A stretch of DNA of 64,000 nt from Nitratifractor salsuginis DSM 16511 (GTDB lineage Bacteria; Campylobacterota; Campylobacteria; Campylobacterales; Sulfurovaceae), in contig NC_014935.1 in NCBI RefSeq assembly GCF_000186245.1, positions 1,550,001 to 1,614,000 on the forward strand, given 5' to 3'. The notes beneath the pieces are model-generated. The model worked only from the letters and a program-made list of their open reading frames with translations. It had not been told where the DNA came from and searched no databases. Below, one piece after another: positions 2,963-59,973 of this stretch; the stretch's first letter is position 1, and each line of letters begins with the position of its first letter. The translations under genes were made by a program, and so were the position numbers.

Positions 2963-3095
2963 CCACTAGTCTATAATCTTCAAACAAATCTTTGATTTAT
3001 CGATATATGCAAACAAGACACTTAACCCAAATCATTTTGGGAAGCAGGGAAATATGCTATCTTCGAGACCCTACTGATTTCAAAAGGAGAAGAAG

Positions 3096-3929
3096 ATCGA
3101 AAAGACCGTTTTGATCACCGGAGCCTACAGCGGTATGGGGCGTGTCACGGCCCAGTACCTGGCCGAGTGCGGTTACCGCGTCTATGCCACTAGCCGCGAT
3201 CCCGAAAGACTCCGGGCCGAGTTTGAAAAATCGGAGCTTTCCGATCCTCCCCGTGTCGTAGCGATGGACCTGCACTCCAAAAGCTCGGTAGCGCAAGCGG
3301 TGGAGACGATCCTGCAGGAGAACAAGGGCATCGACGTGCTGGTCAACAACGCCGGCTACGGGCTGGTAGCCACCGTGGAGGAGGCGGAGGAAGAGGAGAT
3401 TATAGAGCAGTTTCAGATCAACCTTTTCGGTCTGCTGCGGGTGACCCGGCAGGTCATCCCGGTGATGCGCCGACGGCAAAGCGGCGTCATCGTCAATATC
3501 AGCTCCTTTCTCGGGCGGGTGGGTTTGCCCCTGCTGACCTTTTACAACGCCAGCAAATACGCCGTGGAGGGGGTGACTGATTCCCTGCGTTTGGAGCTGG
3601 CGCCCGCGGGGATCCGGGTCCATTCGGTGATGCCGGGCTTTTTCAGCACCCAGTTCGCCCGCAAAAACCTCAAAGTCAACGCCAAGATCCAAAGTGAAAC
3701 GAGCCCCTACGCTCCCCTCTCCCGACAATTGGCCCCGAGAATCGTCGAAGAGATCAACCACGGCAACGACCCGATGGAAGTGGCACACGCCATCCGCTAC
3801 CTCATCGAGACCGAGGAAGCCCCCGCACGGGTCGCAGTGGGAGAGATCGCCAAAAAGTTTCTCGCGATGCGTCGGGAGCTCAACGATGCCGAGTATGAAC
3901 AGCGGGTGCGGGACAGCTATGGATTTTAA
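3096..3929 (+). CDS. Short-chain dehydrogenase/reductase (SDR)
   Basis: Classical SDR of about 277 residues: a nucleotide-binding TGAYSGMG motif near the N-terminus, NNAGYG, an active-site SS and YNASK (Tyr-x-x-x-Lys). NAD(P)-dependent oxidoreductase; substrate unknown. The start is odd. An AAGGAG at 3084-3089 is placed for an ATC codon at 3096, giving Ile/Met-Glu-Lys-Thr-Val-Leu-Ile-Thr-Gly, the usual beginning of this fold. The only conventional alternative is a TTG at 3111, which has no ribosome-binding site and removes the first beta-strand. The AraC-type gene follows after 12 nt and probably shares the transcript. Confidence 0.85.
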   Translation: MEKTVLITGAYSGMGRVTAQYLAECGYRVYATSRDPERLRAEFEKSELSDPPRVVAMDLHSKSSVAQAVETILQENKGIDVLVNNAGYGLVATVEEAEEEEIIEQFQINLFGLLRVTRQVIPVMRRRQSGVIVNISSFLGRVGLPLLTFYNASKYAVEGVTDSLRLELAPAGIRVHSVMPGFFSTQFARKNLKVNAKIQSETSPYAPLSRQLAPRIVEEINHGNDPMEVAHAIRYLIETEEAPARVAVGEIAKKFLAMRRELNDAEYEQRVRDSYGF

Positions 3930-19123: not shown

Positions 19124-19675
19124 CTACACCTCGATCCAGGGACGCAGGATCTCCACCTGCAATCCCATCGCCGTGCTCTCGAGCCCCTGCACCTTCTCGA
19201 TGTAAGGCTTGCAAAACCCTTCGACCATACAGGCCCCCGCCTTGCCCTGCCACTCCCCGCTCTCAAGATAGCGCTGCAGCTCGGTTTCGTCGAAGGGAGC
19301 GAATCGGTAATGGGTCGCCGAAAGGTCCAGGAAGTAACGCCGGGCCGATTTGAGATGGGCGCAGCTGACGATGGCGATCTCTTCTCCGCTGATCGTCCTC
19401 AAGATCCGCTCGGCATCGTCGCGATCCTTCGCCTTGCGCAGGATCTGCCCCCGGGGCCCGGCGATCACCGTATCGGCTACCAACAGCGGGATCTCCAAGC
19501 CAAAAGCCGCCTCTGCCGCTTCCAGCTTGCCTTTGGAAGCGTGGTAGACGAATTTTCTAGCATCGTTCGTTTGAATCTGCTCCTCGTCGAAGTCCACGGG
19601 AGACTGGATGAAATCGATATCGAACTCTCTGAGGAGTTTGGCACGGCTCTCGGAGGCGGAACAAAGCCTTATCAT
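19124..19675 (-). CDS. maf: Maf-family nucleotide pyrophosphatase
   Basis: A 183-residue Maf/HAM1-like protein: N-terminal L-C-S-A-S-x-S-R, a VDFDEEQ acidic motif and VADTVI with the catalytic Asp. Maf enzymes hydrolyse non-canonical or methylated NTPs. The ATG at 19675 has GGAG 6 nt upstream; a GTG at 19687 is the alternative. bioF follows after 2 nt. A heptamer element (E3) lies just upstream. Confidence 0.85.
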   Translation of the reverse strand: MIRLCSASESRAKLLREFDIDFIQSPVDFDEEQIQTNDARKFVYHASKGKLEAAEAAFGLEIPLLVADTVIAGPRGQILRKAKDRDDAERILRTISGEEIAIVSCAHLKSARRYFLDLSATHYRFAPFDETELQRYLESGEWQGKAGACMVEGFCKPYIEKVQGLESTAMGLQVEILRPWIEV

Positions 19676-19694
19676 AAGAAGCTCCACTTCTTAT

Positions 19695-19819
19695 GAGATG
19701 GAGAATGGAGAATAGAGAATGGAGAATTTTTTAGTCGTCCAAAGTAATCACTATTCAAAAAAAGCTTTGCAGAGCAAAGCAATCCAAAATTCCTCATTCC
19801 TAACTCCTCATTTCTCATT
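19695..19819. repeat. Composite heptamer-repeat element E3
   Basis: Left array of GGAGAAT/AGAGAAT units (19695-19727), a core with a terminator hairpin (19757-19780), and a right array of ATTCCTC, ATTCCTA, ACTCCTC, ATTTCTC units (19786-19819). The right array touches the TGA of the gene ending at 19823. Read on the minus strand the core matches that of E6 closely, including TTTGGATTGC before the stem, the T-run after it and TGATTAC/TCATTAC further on. Confidence 0.8.
19757..19780 (-). terminator. Terminator hairpin in E3
   Basis: Minus strand: GCTTTGC-TCT-GCAAAGC followed by seven T's. It is oriented to terminate transcription from the membrane protein gene at 19823-20302. The stem differs from the E6 stem by a paired change (T-A instead of G-C). 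Confidence 0.8.
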
Positions 19820-34012: not shown

Positions 34013-34879
34013 TTATTTGTAACTCTCCAGGCGCTTAAACCACCCTTTTTTGAAGCGCCAAAGCTTTCGCTCGGGCGGAGCGATACGGATCAGTCGCTCC
34101 AGCACCTTTCGGGCTGCGACGGCAAAAGCGTGATGGGGATCGGGATCACGAAGATCCATCCGTGTAAGGACCTGATAGAGCCCCCACCCTTTGCCCTGAT
34201 AGCGCTCGCTTTTGGTAACTCCGTCGCCTTTGAAATTGATGTAGTCGATGAGGATATAGGCCCCCTGGGGATCGACGCTGCCGTCTTTTCGATAGAGCAG
34301 TCTGCGGTAATTTTTTTCGACGATCTTCCCCTGGCCGTGCCTCTCGGCATAGCGGAGGATCTTCGGGAAGGATTCATTGAGCCGCCGGAGCATATAGCGG
34401 GCCTGAAGCCCCTGGGTCCGGTCGAGAAAAACAGTCAACTCCCGCATCTTCGGGCTGTTTTGTTCCTTGGCTTGTTTCCACCGTTCATAGCTGTTCCAGA
34501 CACAGGGGGTTTGGGGTGTCAGCCACTTGGGCGCTTTGGCCCCGTGGGCGATCAAAAATTTCAGCATCGGAGGGAAAGACTCTTTGAACCACATCCGCTG
34601 CTCTTTCGTATACCAGATGAAATGCCCGATCCCGCAGGAGGCGAACTCTTCGCCCTTGTTCCACCAAACCAGTTGCCAGCGCTGTCCGGAGCCTTCGTTT
34701 TGCCAAATCATATGGGCGATCCGACGGGCCTGGGCGTCGCTGAGCTTGAGCTCCGAAGCGAAAAGAAAGGAACCGAAGAGGAGAGAACAGACGAGAAAGA
34801 GAATCGAATGAGAAATGAGGAATGAGGAATGAGGAACTTTGGATTGCGTTGCTTCGCAACGCTTTTTATTAAAAATCAT
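34013..34879 (-). CDS. Secreted protein of unknown function whose start lies inside a repeat element
   Basis: A 288-residue protein with a hydrophobic signal segment (about 26-42) and a soluble domain rich in Trp, Tyr, Arg and Lys (MIWQNEGSGQRWQLVWWNKG, CGIGHFIWYT). No family recognised. The only ATG in frame (34879) lies within element E6, so about 25 N-terminal residues would be translated from the heptamer array and hairpin, with no ribosome-binding site. If that start is wrong, an ATT near 34807 would be needed. Confidence 0.7.
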   Translation of the reverse strand: MIFNKKRCEATQSKVPHSSFLISHSILFLVCSLLFGSFLFASELKLSDAQARRIAHMIWQNEGSGQRWQLVWWNKGEEFASCGIGHFIWYTKEQRMWFKESFPPMLKFLIAHGAKAPKWLTPQTPCVWNSYERWKQAKEQNSPKMRELTVFLDRTQGLQARYMLRRLNESFPKILRYAERHGQGKIVEKNYRRLLYRKDGSVDPQGAYILIDYINFKGDGVTKSERYQGKGWGLYQVLTRMDLRDPDPHHAFAVAARKVLERLIRIAPPERKLWRFKKGWFKRLESYK

Positions 34880-34925
34880 TACACTAATCCAAAATCCAAA
34901 ATTTATAATCCAAAATCTTCAATCT
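34805..34925. repeat. Composite heptamer-repeat element E6
   Basis: Left array of GAGGAAT/GAGAAAT units (34805-34836), a core with a terminator hairpin (34846-34867), right array of TCCAAAA, TCCAAAA, TTTATAA, TCCAAAA, TCTTCAA units (34887-34925). The right array supplies the TGA of bcp; the left array and core encode the N-terminus of the neighbouring secreted protein. Confidence 0.8.
34846..34867 (+). terminator. Terminator-like hairpin in E6
   Basis: Plus strand: GCGTTGC-TTC-GCAACGC followed by TTTTT. It is antisense to both flanking minus-strand genes, so it would block antisense transcription rather than end them. Homologous to the E3 hairpin with a compensatory base-pair change. Confidence 0.7.
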
Positions 34926-35660: not shown

Positions 35661-35825
35661 GTCGCACGTCGCAGGCACGGGCCTTCGGCCCTCAAGTCAC
35701 AAGATTTGGAAATCCGTGTTACGTGCTACGTGCTACGAGAAAAGAAAAAAATCTTCTATTCACCCAGAAATTATTTACTCATCACCCAGCAATCCAAAAT
35801 TCAAAATCCAGAATCCTCAATCTCC
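35661..35825. repeat. Composite heptamer-repeat element E7
   Basis: Units GTCGCAC, GTCGCAG, then hairpin GGGCC-TTC-GGCCC (35679-35691), a TACGTGC array (35715-35737), an AT-rich stretch, and a right array TCCAAAA, TTCAAAA, TCCAGAA, TCCTCAA (35789-35825) that supplies the TGA of the DUF523 gene. The first half is nearly identical to E10. Confidence 0.8.
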
Positions 35826-36782: not shown

Positions 36783-37340
36783 TGAATGTCTCCACCGGCT
36801 AATAGCCGGTGGCTTCAGATTACGGCTGAAAGCCGGTCATTCAGCCTGAAGGCCGTCGGTTGATCAGACAACTCGGAACTCATCATCAAGCTCTGGTGGT
36901 TGTTGGTTCTTGATATATTCCATCCAGACTTCATCGGTCACATTTCCACTCGTTGCAACCCAGTATCCTCTCGCCCACAAATGCTGCCCCCAATACCGCT
37001 TCTTCAGCATCCGAAATTCACTCATCAATTTATGCGAACTCTTCCCTTTCAAATATTGCACTGCCTTTGATACGGACATATTTGGCGGTATCCCTATCAA
37101 CAAATGTACATGATCCCGATTGATGGATCCTGCATAAATCACCATCTCCCGACTCATCGCAATCTCACGTAACAAATCTCGGCATCGGTACCCCACATCC
37201 CCTTTTAAGACGGGATAACGGTATTTTGTCGTCCACACGAGATGGTATTTACAGTCCCATACTGTATGCCCACCATTTCTATACTCTTGCATCTTTCAAG
37301 CATACCATATCCCGGCCGCCTAAAGGCGTGGGGTTTACGG
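36783..37340 (-). mobile_element. IS200-type insertion sequence (IS200/IS605 family)
   Basis: A short element holding only tnpA. The transposase-proximal end has a CGCC-TAAA-GGCG hairpin (37317-37328) followed by GTGGGGTTTAC. The other end has CCACCGGC-TAATA-GCCGGTGG (36792-36812) and a second imperfect hairpin (about 36820-36858). Sub-terminal hairpins and absence of terminal inverted repeats fit single-strand transposition. Exact ends are estimated. Confidence 0.85.
36864..37292 (-). CDS. tnpA: IS200/IS605 TnpA transposase (Y1 HUH)
   Basis: A 142-residue single-strand transposase: typical HTVWDCKYHLVWTTKYR start, HUH motif in RDHVHLLIG, and the catalytic Tyr in the C-terminal helix (MEYIKNQ). 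Length is complete and no frameshift is visible, so it may be active. There is no tnpB. Confidence 0.95.
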   Translation of the reverse strand: MQEYRNGGHTVWDCKYHLVWTTKYRYPVLKGDVGYRCRDLLREIAMSREMVIYAGSINRDHVHLLIGIPPNMSVSKAVQYLKGKSSHKLMSEFRMLKKRYWGQHLWARGYWVATSGNVTDEVWMEYIKNQQPPELDDEFRVV

Positions 37341-58314: not shown

Positions 58315-59973
58315 GTGAAACAAGCAAATGAGCCAAAGCTGAACAAGATCGAACGCTACAAAAGAGAGCTTCCTCCCGCCGACTTTTCACCTGAGCGTGT
58401 CAAAGATTGGCAAAACGTGGACGAACGGTGCCGGTTCTATCTGAAAAATTTCGGCCTTTACAACAACAAGCTTCGTCCCGATCTCTGGATGATCCGTCTT
58501 CGCTTCGACGGAGGCCTCATCACGCCCGAGGCCCTCAAACTACTTGCCCGGATCGCACGACAGGAAACAGCCCGCCTCCTCCTGACCGCTCGGGGGCAGA
58601 TGGAGCTTCACGACCTCAGGGCCGGCCGGGTCCTGCCCCTCTGGCGGGAGCTCAAAGCTGCCGGGCTGCAAACGTGCCAAGTCATTTCCGACAATTTTCG
58701 GGGCATCGTTATCGATCCTCTCGACGGCCTCGCCTCCGACAACCGCATCGAATGTCTATCCATCCTACAGGAGATCAGAGAGCGGGTCGTGGGCAAGCGT
58801 GAGTGGATCGGCACCCTCCCCCGCAAATTCAACACGGCCCTCATCGGCAGAGAGGCTCCCTCGTTCAACCCTTGGGGGAACGACCTCCTCCTGGCCCTGG
58901 CCCGCGATGGAGATCGATGGGGGTTTAACCTCTATCTGGGGGGTAAAAACAGTGAGACCGCCCGGGAGGCCGATATCTTCTGCCCTCCCGAAAGTGCGGC
59001 GGACCTTTTTGAAGCGGTCGCCAAAGTCTATCGGGAACACGGCCCGAGAGGCAGCCGCTCCAAAACCCGCCTCTTTCACCTCATCGAAGAGGTGGGAATG
59101 CCTCAAATCCGTGTGTGGATCGAAGAGGAGTCGGGCACTCCCCTGCCCCGGGCGGGAGAGCTCAGGATGCAAAGCAGCCACCGCAACCGAGACCATCTCC
59201 TCCCTATCCGCCGCTACGGCCGCCACGGAGAGATCAGCCCCGAGGAACTCGAAAAAGCCGTCCAAGAGGCCCAAAGCCACGAACACACCCTCCGTCTGAC
59301 TCCCCACCAGGAACTCTGGGCTTTCGATCCGGACCTGGTCCATCAAGAAATTCAAAATCCCAAATCCAAAATCCCAAATCACGCTTCTACCGGAAGCGTA
59401 ACCGCGTGTGCCGGCTCCCGCTACTGCCCCCTCTCCCTCTGGGACATCAAAGAAGACCTGGCGCTCCTCCCCCTGGGACGTCTGGAAAAGCTGGGGGTGA
59501 GCCTCGGATTCAGCGGCTGCCTCAAAGGGTGCGGACGACACTACCACAGCGATCTGGGGCTCATCGGCCTGCGCACCAACCTCTATGCCGAAACCGAACG
59601 GGCGGCACGGATCTTCCTGGGAGCGCTCCAGGCACCCGAGCCTATGCCGGCGCGGATGCTCTACTACTCTGTGCCCCTGCGCAGACTCGGTGAATTGCTC
59701 CATACGATCCTCGATGATTATGAAGCCTCGGACAGGGCGGATTTCGAAACCTTCAGCCGAGAAGTTCTCGCACGCTACTCCATCGAGACTTTGCAGTTGT
59801 GGTATCTCGTCCGCCAACTCCATGAGCTCCCCAATAATCTCGTTGAGTTATTCTACGCAGGCGACGAATTCGTGCTCCTGTCAAAGATCGATGAACTCCC
59901 GGATATGCCGCAAAACCCCGAACTCTACGAAAAAATCAAACAACTCAGCCACCGCCTCTGGGATCTCGTTTGA
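58315..59973 (+). CDS. Ferredoxin-type nitrite/sulfite reductase (siroheme, [4Fe-4S])
   Basis: A 552-residue NirA/SiR-family protein with two ferredoxin-like half domains and the siroheme/Fe-S ligands C365-x5-C371 (CAGSRYC) and C402-x3-C406 (CLKGC). It reduces nitrite to ammonia or sulfite to sulfide. The FNR box and haem d1 neighbours suggest nitrite, which is not proven. GTG start; the ribosome-binding site is weak. Residues 345-358 are encoded by a heptamer array plus hairpin (E12) inserted in frame just before the cluster-binding loop. Confidence 0.85.
   Translation: MKQANEPKLNKIERYKRELPPADFSPERVKDWQNVDERCRFYLKNFGLYNNKLRPDLWMIRLRFDGGLITPEALKLLARIARQETARLLLTARGQMELHDLRAGRVLPLWRELKAAGLQTCQVISDNFRGIVIDPLDGLASDNRIECLSILQEIRERVVGKREWIGTLPRKFNTALIGREAPSFNPWGNDLLLALARDGDRWGFNLYLGGKNSETAREADIFCPPESAADLFEAVAKVYREHGPRGSRSKTRLFHLIEEVGMPQIRVWIEEESGTPLPRAGELRMQSSHRNRDHLLPIRRYGRHGEISPEELEKAVQEAQSHEHTLRLTPHQELWAFDPDLVHQEIQNPKSKIPNHASTGSVTACAGSRYCPLSLWDIKEDLALLPLGRLEKLGVSLGFSGCLKGCGRHYHSDLGLIGLRTNLYAETERAARIFLGALQAPEPMPARMLYYSVPLRRLGELLHTILDDYEASDRADFETFSREVLARYSIETLQLWYLVRQLHELPNNLVELFYAGDEFVLLSKIDELPDMPQNPELYEKIKQLSHRLWDLV
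59350..59398. repeat. Heptamer element E12 inside a coding sequence
   Basis: Units TTCAAAA, TCCCAAA, TCCAAAA, TCCCAAA (59350-59380) followed by hairpin CGCTTC-TACCG-GAAGCG (59382-59398). The units match the right arrays of E6 and E7. It is read in frame as an Ile/Asn/Pro/Lys-rich insert of about 16 residues. Confidence 0.8.

Follow-up and report, generated by a model that had tools for sequence, protein, structure and literature searches.

Siroheme reductase gene and its in-frame insert

The window analysed here is a stretch of 64,000 nucleotides from the genome of Nitratifractor salsuginis DSM 16511. An ORF of 552 amino acids at positions 58315-59973 on the plus strand encodes a nitrite/sulfite (siroheme) reductase with invariant cysteine ligand motifs, whose homologues of known structure include plant NiR, NirA and SiR. 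Codons 345-361 consist of a repeat array and a hairpin. The array (59348-59380, plus strand; AAATTCAAAATCCCAAATCCAAAATCCCAAATC) is built of AATCCAA and AATCCCA units, encodes EIQNPKSKIPN without a break in frame, and is supported both by TRF (period 7/14, 94% match) and by comparison with orthologues. The hairpin ACGCTTC-TACCG-GAAGCGT (59381-59399, plus strand) follows with no gap; it has a 7 bp stem, its arms covary, and its outer (3') arm is formed by the host codons G-S-V. The whole module is 52 nt long and contains no gene, and conservation resumes at the invariant C365/C371, the first cluster cysteine pair. By homology, plant NiR has a longer segment before the cysteine motif at the position of the insert, so this stretch would be naturally variable in length.

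The initial annotation had placed a period-7 array and an adjoining hairpin in frame before the first cluster cysteine pair, and both are present in the sequence. The hairpin that it gave as CGCTTC-TACCG-GAAGCG is there as well, with a stem one pair longer than stated. The array had also been assigned to the same type as the right arrays of two intergenic elements, E6 and E7, and all three do belong to the AATCCAA family.

The insertion site in related genomes

Orthologous reductases were compared by the number of residues between a conserved RL.P.Q motif and the cysteine pair. This segment contains 33-40 residues in the members of the genus without period-7 arrays (G003, G004 and G008), 46 in the window protein, 43-65 in other members of the genus and 87-89 in two genomes of a sister genus. 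In the alignment, orthologues without the array also lack the encoded residues, which bears out the proposed in-frame insertion; its size had been put at about 14-18 residues, but the net excess over the array-less relatives is only about 6-13. No orthologue was seen that carried the same residues without period-7 DNA, and in G002 and G005 the pattern is even cleaner.

Period-7 DNA occupies the reductase site in ten related genomes, most relatives being available as drafts. The heptamer is AATCCAA in G002, G005 and G011, TCTCAAT in G006, G007 and G009, CTCAACG/CTCAACA together with TCTTCCA in G001 and G010, and ACCATCA plus other heptamers in G036 and G044. In several of these arrays two or three heptamer blocks are joined, and every array is in frame and free of stop codons. 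The presence of different heptamers in relatives at one site implies that the site persists while the unit changes. A simple, recent insertion in a single event was rejected, since the site is filled, with differing units, in ten related genomes. Judged from the orthologous sequences, the insert is evidently old and common to the clade, and it apparently sits in a length-variable, length-tolerant loop.

Heptamer arrays across the genome

The Nitratifractor genome was sampled as stretches totalling about 464 kb, and copy counts from this sample are not genome totals. It contains 65 period-7 arrays with a score of at least 12, compared with 0-4 arrays for each of periods 4-6 and 9-13 at the same score; the rows for periods 8, 14 and 15 probably restate period-7 arrays for the most part. 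Array length is mostly 30-33 nt, and 50 of 59 arrays round to four or five units. Hairpins scoring at least 18 adjoin the outer end of 13/59 arrays but only 0.7% of random positions. When the threshold is lowered to 16, they are found at the outer end of 14/59 arrays, at the inner end of 2/59 and at 1.4% of random positions.

Within the window, the intergenic mini-element E6 has a left array of GGAATGA units detected by the array scan (34807-34836), an inner hairpin GCGTTGC-TTC-GCAACGC (34846-34862) of the same type as in the gene-bearing element at locus L032, and a right AATCCAA array called by TRF (34886-34917). The E7 right array (35791-35816), also called by TRF, is again of the AATCCAA family to which the reductase insert belongs; all four features are on the plus strand. 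The mini-elements and the L032 element have in common the GGAATGA array, a short spacer and the inner hairpin, a MITE-like sharing of ends with a gene-bearing copy that is seen for the L032 subfamily only. The inner hairpin follows the consensus GCNTTGC-NNN-GCAANGC, and 11 of its 13 copies in the 464 kb are no more than 30 nt away from an array. An Rfam search of the window returned no match.

Association with PF05635 genes

The gene carried at L032 belongs to the 23S_rRNA_IVP family (PF05635; IVP below), of which the Nitratifractor genome has five members, one of them split. This fifth gene (L035) is interrupted, with two pieces in different frames, and its flanking heptamer arrays are kept. 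The reductase array is present in the genomes of the genus that have 4-8 IVP genes, and it is missing from G003 and G004, which have no IVP gene, and from G008, which has one; G012 has neither an IVP gene nor a close reductase orthologue. Array density per 100 kb is 0 in G003 and G004 and 2.0 in G008, as compared with 12.8 in G000, 21.2 in G001, 20 in G009 and only 5 in G005. In G010, which has seven IVP genes, no arrays were found in a 20-kb sample. Some other genera, too, have IVP genes together with a reductase that lacks the array, so that outside the clade the presence of IVP genes does not predict the insertion.

Inverted complementary flanks, mostly heptamer arrays, surround 30 of the 31 IVP loci in the genus (controls, 2.3%), and most copies have a heptamer of their own, with the left array matching the right. 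A scan across many bacterial phyla, made with a seven-sequence IVP alignment of one subfamily and therefore covering that subfamily, found inverted flanks at 58 of 79 usable loci versus 5 of 69 in DNA 600 bp away, with no detectable inverted flanks at the remaining 21 loci. A period-7 array lies near 49 of the 79 loci, and other periods near only 1-3. Some gammaproteobacterial loci in the set L180-L259 (for example L209, L214 and L252) have very long period-7 arrays of up to about 17 units, in contrast to the short ones of the Nitratifractor genome. Among 20 IVP loci sampled across bacteria, none lay in rRNA and none gave an Rfam match.

Closely related IVPs at different loci have one heptamer in common (L032 versus L075, L077 and L078), which indicates that element and array travel together, and IVP identity correlates with heptamer similarity (0/2000 permutations). 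Orthologous IVP loci can nonetheless differ in heptamer on both sides, which in sequence terms looks like concerted change. Within the Nitratifractor sample, 36 of 59 array heptamers are within one mismatch of a heptamer from the genome's own IVP loci, as against 3-27 for the sets of other genomes, and own-genome specificity is accordingly weak.

To our knowledge, the IVP has no known catalytic motif. Crystal structures are available for the family (2RLD and 2GSC). Two candidates for a common partner enzyme were considered and discarded. Reverse transcriptase (PF00078) is found in no genome of the genus that has at least four IVP genes, and Y1_Tnp is absent from G002, G005, G006, G007 and G010, which have 4-7 IVP genes together with the reductase array, some of these five being incomplete drafts. 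No transposase common to the IVP-rich genomes of the genus was found. The window itself contains a Y1 (IS200/IS605-type) transposase at 36903-37265, of which the genome has seven copies with identical scores.

The same module in other genes

A comparable module lies at the start of maf, where the hairpin TCATAAGAAG-CTCCA-CTTCTTATGA (19672-19696, minus strand) has a Shine-Dalgarno sequence in its loop and the ATG in its arm, and adjoins an ATGGAGA array (19698-19727, plus strand). Relatives have other heptamers at the orthologous site, and in four species the hairpin is constant while the heptamer differs. IVP-rich relatives usually have an array and a hairpin where pgsA, maf, dedA, queE and the gene for a membrane protein at L049 begin; the loop contains or lies close to the Shine-Dalgarno sequence, and the start codon is within the 3' arm or adjoins it. 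Besides maf, start modules were located at L046:2989, L055:12415, L049:8291, L039:5377 and L042:14140, and such modules might affect translation. Array-less relatives have neither array nor hairpin at these gene starts; the absence of the hairpin from array-less orthologues at pgsA, dedA and queE, and at the L049 gene, suggests that both arrive together in the cases seen. The L049 gene has a compact empty site in G005, G006 and G011 and about 180-270 extra bases in G000, G001, G009 and G010. Empty and filled sites align, with no clear target-site duplication readable between them.

In-frame arrays are also found in the fumarate reductase subunits, one in FrdA and two in FrdB, with species-specific heptamers. 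Some of these adjoin hairpins of 13-14 bp, in which the outer arm consists of conserved host codons. At L039:4985-5016, 3009-3046 and 3225-3247, arrays lie in the flavoprotein and iron-sulfur subunits of fumarate reductase/succinate dehydrogenase, and relatives have other heptamers at the same positions. The N-termini of MurI (L053) and of a TrmH-like protein (L048) are array-encoded (MKSKIQNPKSKIV; MAEKNSTHNAQRTTL).

The data do not support a fixed palindrome as part of the element, given that at the reductase site the stem differs between species and the outer arm belongs to the host codons. Most of the stems pair (CGCTTC/GAAGCG, GCCTC/GAGGC, CTCCC/GGGAG and GATCGGC/GCCGATC); there is almost none in G010 and one of only 4 bp in G036. 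Pairing between the two arms of the same species was compared with pairing after arms had been swapped between species, using 5000 permutations and, for the reductase, 11 species. The own-species values are higher at the reductase (5.8 versus 3.5; 0/5000 permutations reach it), pgsA (15.1 versus 3.9; 0/5000), maf (10.7 versus 5.7; 30/5000) and dedA (12.5 versus 8.9; 9/5000), figures that are indications and not exact probabilities because arms and loops were picked by eye and kinship is uncorrected. The idea that the left arm is a strict inverted copy of the downstream host codons was set aside, as part of that arm coincides with native codons at the FrdB sites.

Interpretation

The reading that we favor, with a probability of roughly 0.6, is that the reductase insert represents one end, a solo array with its junction hairpin, of a family of heptamer-array elements linked to IVP genes, and that the site has persisted while the unit was rewritten. 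The most complete copies of this family would consist of a single gene for a PF05635 four-helix-bundle protein enclosed by a pair of heptamer arrays in inverted orientation. The reductase gene may have received an ancestral element before the clade diversified, and the element would have been kept because it lacked stop codons, preserved the frame and lay in a loop that tolerates changes in length. Later, the unit would have been replaced or homogenised several times at the persisting site as the hairpin kept pairing. The IVP proteins may recognise the heptamer or hairpin as DNA or RNA and promote spread of a presumably mobile family, with the chemistry supplied by an unnamed host enzyme. Mini-elements and solo arrays could then be deletion derivatives and stripped ends, and the arms might stay paired through template-directed copying instead of selection. 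It might also be that IVP elements simply prefer arrays made by something else.

Parts of this pattern can be read in other ways. If the modules at gene starts were primary, acting on expression, the coding copies would be by-products. At pgsA, maf and queE the loop contains or borders the Shine-Dalgarno sequence, and the start codon is part of the 3' arm or adjoins it, which fits this idea; similar proposals have been made for Beggiatoaceae (PMC4679880) and Geobacter metallireducens (PMC2700814). However, the unit sequence is unconserved at orthologous sites, some species have an empty site before the same gene, and the module also lies deep within the coding regions of SiR, FrdA and FrdB, so that a primary role at gene starts is unlikely. 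We regard as slightly less probable again a slippage-born microsatellite, in which a local short repeat in a tolerant loop was expanded by polymerase slippage with no mobile element involved. In many bacterial genomes no long simple repeat is commoner than the heptamer, for which slippage has been proposed (PMC4679880), and units do change within the arrays found here. Against this stand the narrow array length, with most at 30-33 nt, the few recurring families and the inverted pairs, along with hairpins that adjoin arrays far above chance, the flanking of one gene family, and the joint occurrence of arrays at several unrelated sites.

The hairpin could instead be the conserved entity, with elements inserting next to DNA hairpins that were already there and one element later taking the place of another, as the single maf hairpin retained in four species with different heptamers might suggest. 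The 23S rRNA intervening sequences, which code for the same protein family, likewise replace the loops of rRNA helices (PMC4990558). This explanation is nevertheless improbable, as the array-less orthologues of pgsA, dedA, queE and the L049 gene have no hairpin.

A broader version of the heptamer-array element reading can be offered tentatively, and is itself somewhat doubtful. PF05635 genes within inverted, co-evolving heptamer arrays may form a bacteria-wide class of mobile elements that have no transposase or reverse transcriptase of their own, and that seed modules of array and hairpin where genes start as well as, with the frame kept, within core enzymes, rewriting the unit sequence in place, with the 23S rRNA intervening sequences as a ribosomal branch. 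The question of where dispersed heptamer repeats come from and that of what the S23/IVP protein does, both of long standing, may be one and the same, in which case a widespread element could be studied through a known gene family. Sulfite and fumarate reductases, moreover, carry loops that selfish DNA seems to have written and, from one species to another, rewritten, and these core-enzyme loops constitute a natural experiment in protein tolerance.

Comparison with known systems

The 23S rRNA intervening sequences resemble the gene-bearing copies in having a PF05635 gene between inverted complementary ends and a link to hairpins. Their origin has been called unclear, and the ORF has been proposed as a mobility component, for example in Coxiella (PMC4990558). 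Unlike them, the sampled copies do not lie in rRNA genes and have heptamer arrays as inverted ends, and most contain no gene. PF05635 is considered homologous to Avd of the diversity-generating retroelements (PMC10053308), but genomes of the genus rich in IVP genes and arrays have no reverse transcriptase. REP/RAYT systems differ as well, in that the Y1 transposase is missing from five IVP-bearing genomes with the reductase array.

Rickettsia palindromic elements, to which the insert had been likened from the outset, are palindromic families of about 100-150 nt (PMC4316617). The likeness lies in short repeats placed in frame within conserved proteins (here SiR, FrdA and FrdB) as well as in intergenic copies; it does not extend to the size, which is 52 nt here, or to a family-specific palindrome, since the module has a heptamer array and no conserved palindrome sequence. 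The comparison thus seems to hold as an analogy and not as membership. The small dispersed repeats (SDR) of Nostoc were reportedly found by Elhai in 2008 to be embedded in heptameric repeats. Like the modules described here, they are tiny hairpins beside tandem heptamers and are suspected of being mobile; the inner hairpin here is GCNTTGC-NNN-GCAANGC.

Finally, heptamer repeats, copies within genes among them, are known as TAACTGA in Beggiatoaceae (PMC4679880), as GGACCGG elements in Geobacter metallireducens (PMC2700814), and as GGGAATC of Xanthomonas and the Nostoc-type repeats, for which a preference for four units has been reported (PMC4692102). A literature search found no paper that joins heptamer arrays to IVP genes, an absence that is no proof of novelty. 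The known heptanucleotide repeats, including the cyanobacterial STRR, share with the present arrays the 7-nt unit, a copy number of about four and a dispersed, mostly intergenic and sometimes genic distribution, and the dispersed tandem units with a preference for about four copies found here are STRR-like. Published reports describe a single heptamer or a few in each genome, with regulatory or G4 roles proposed, whereas the arrays described here comprise many co-existing heptamers that switch at fixed sites, adjoin hairpins and flank PF05635 genes.
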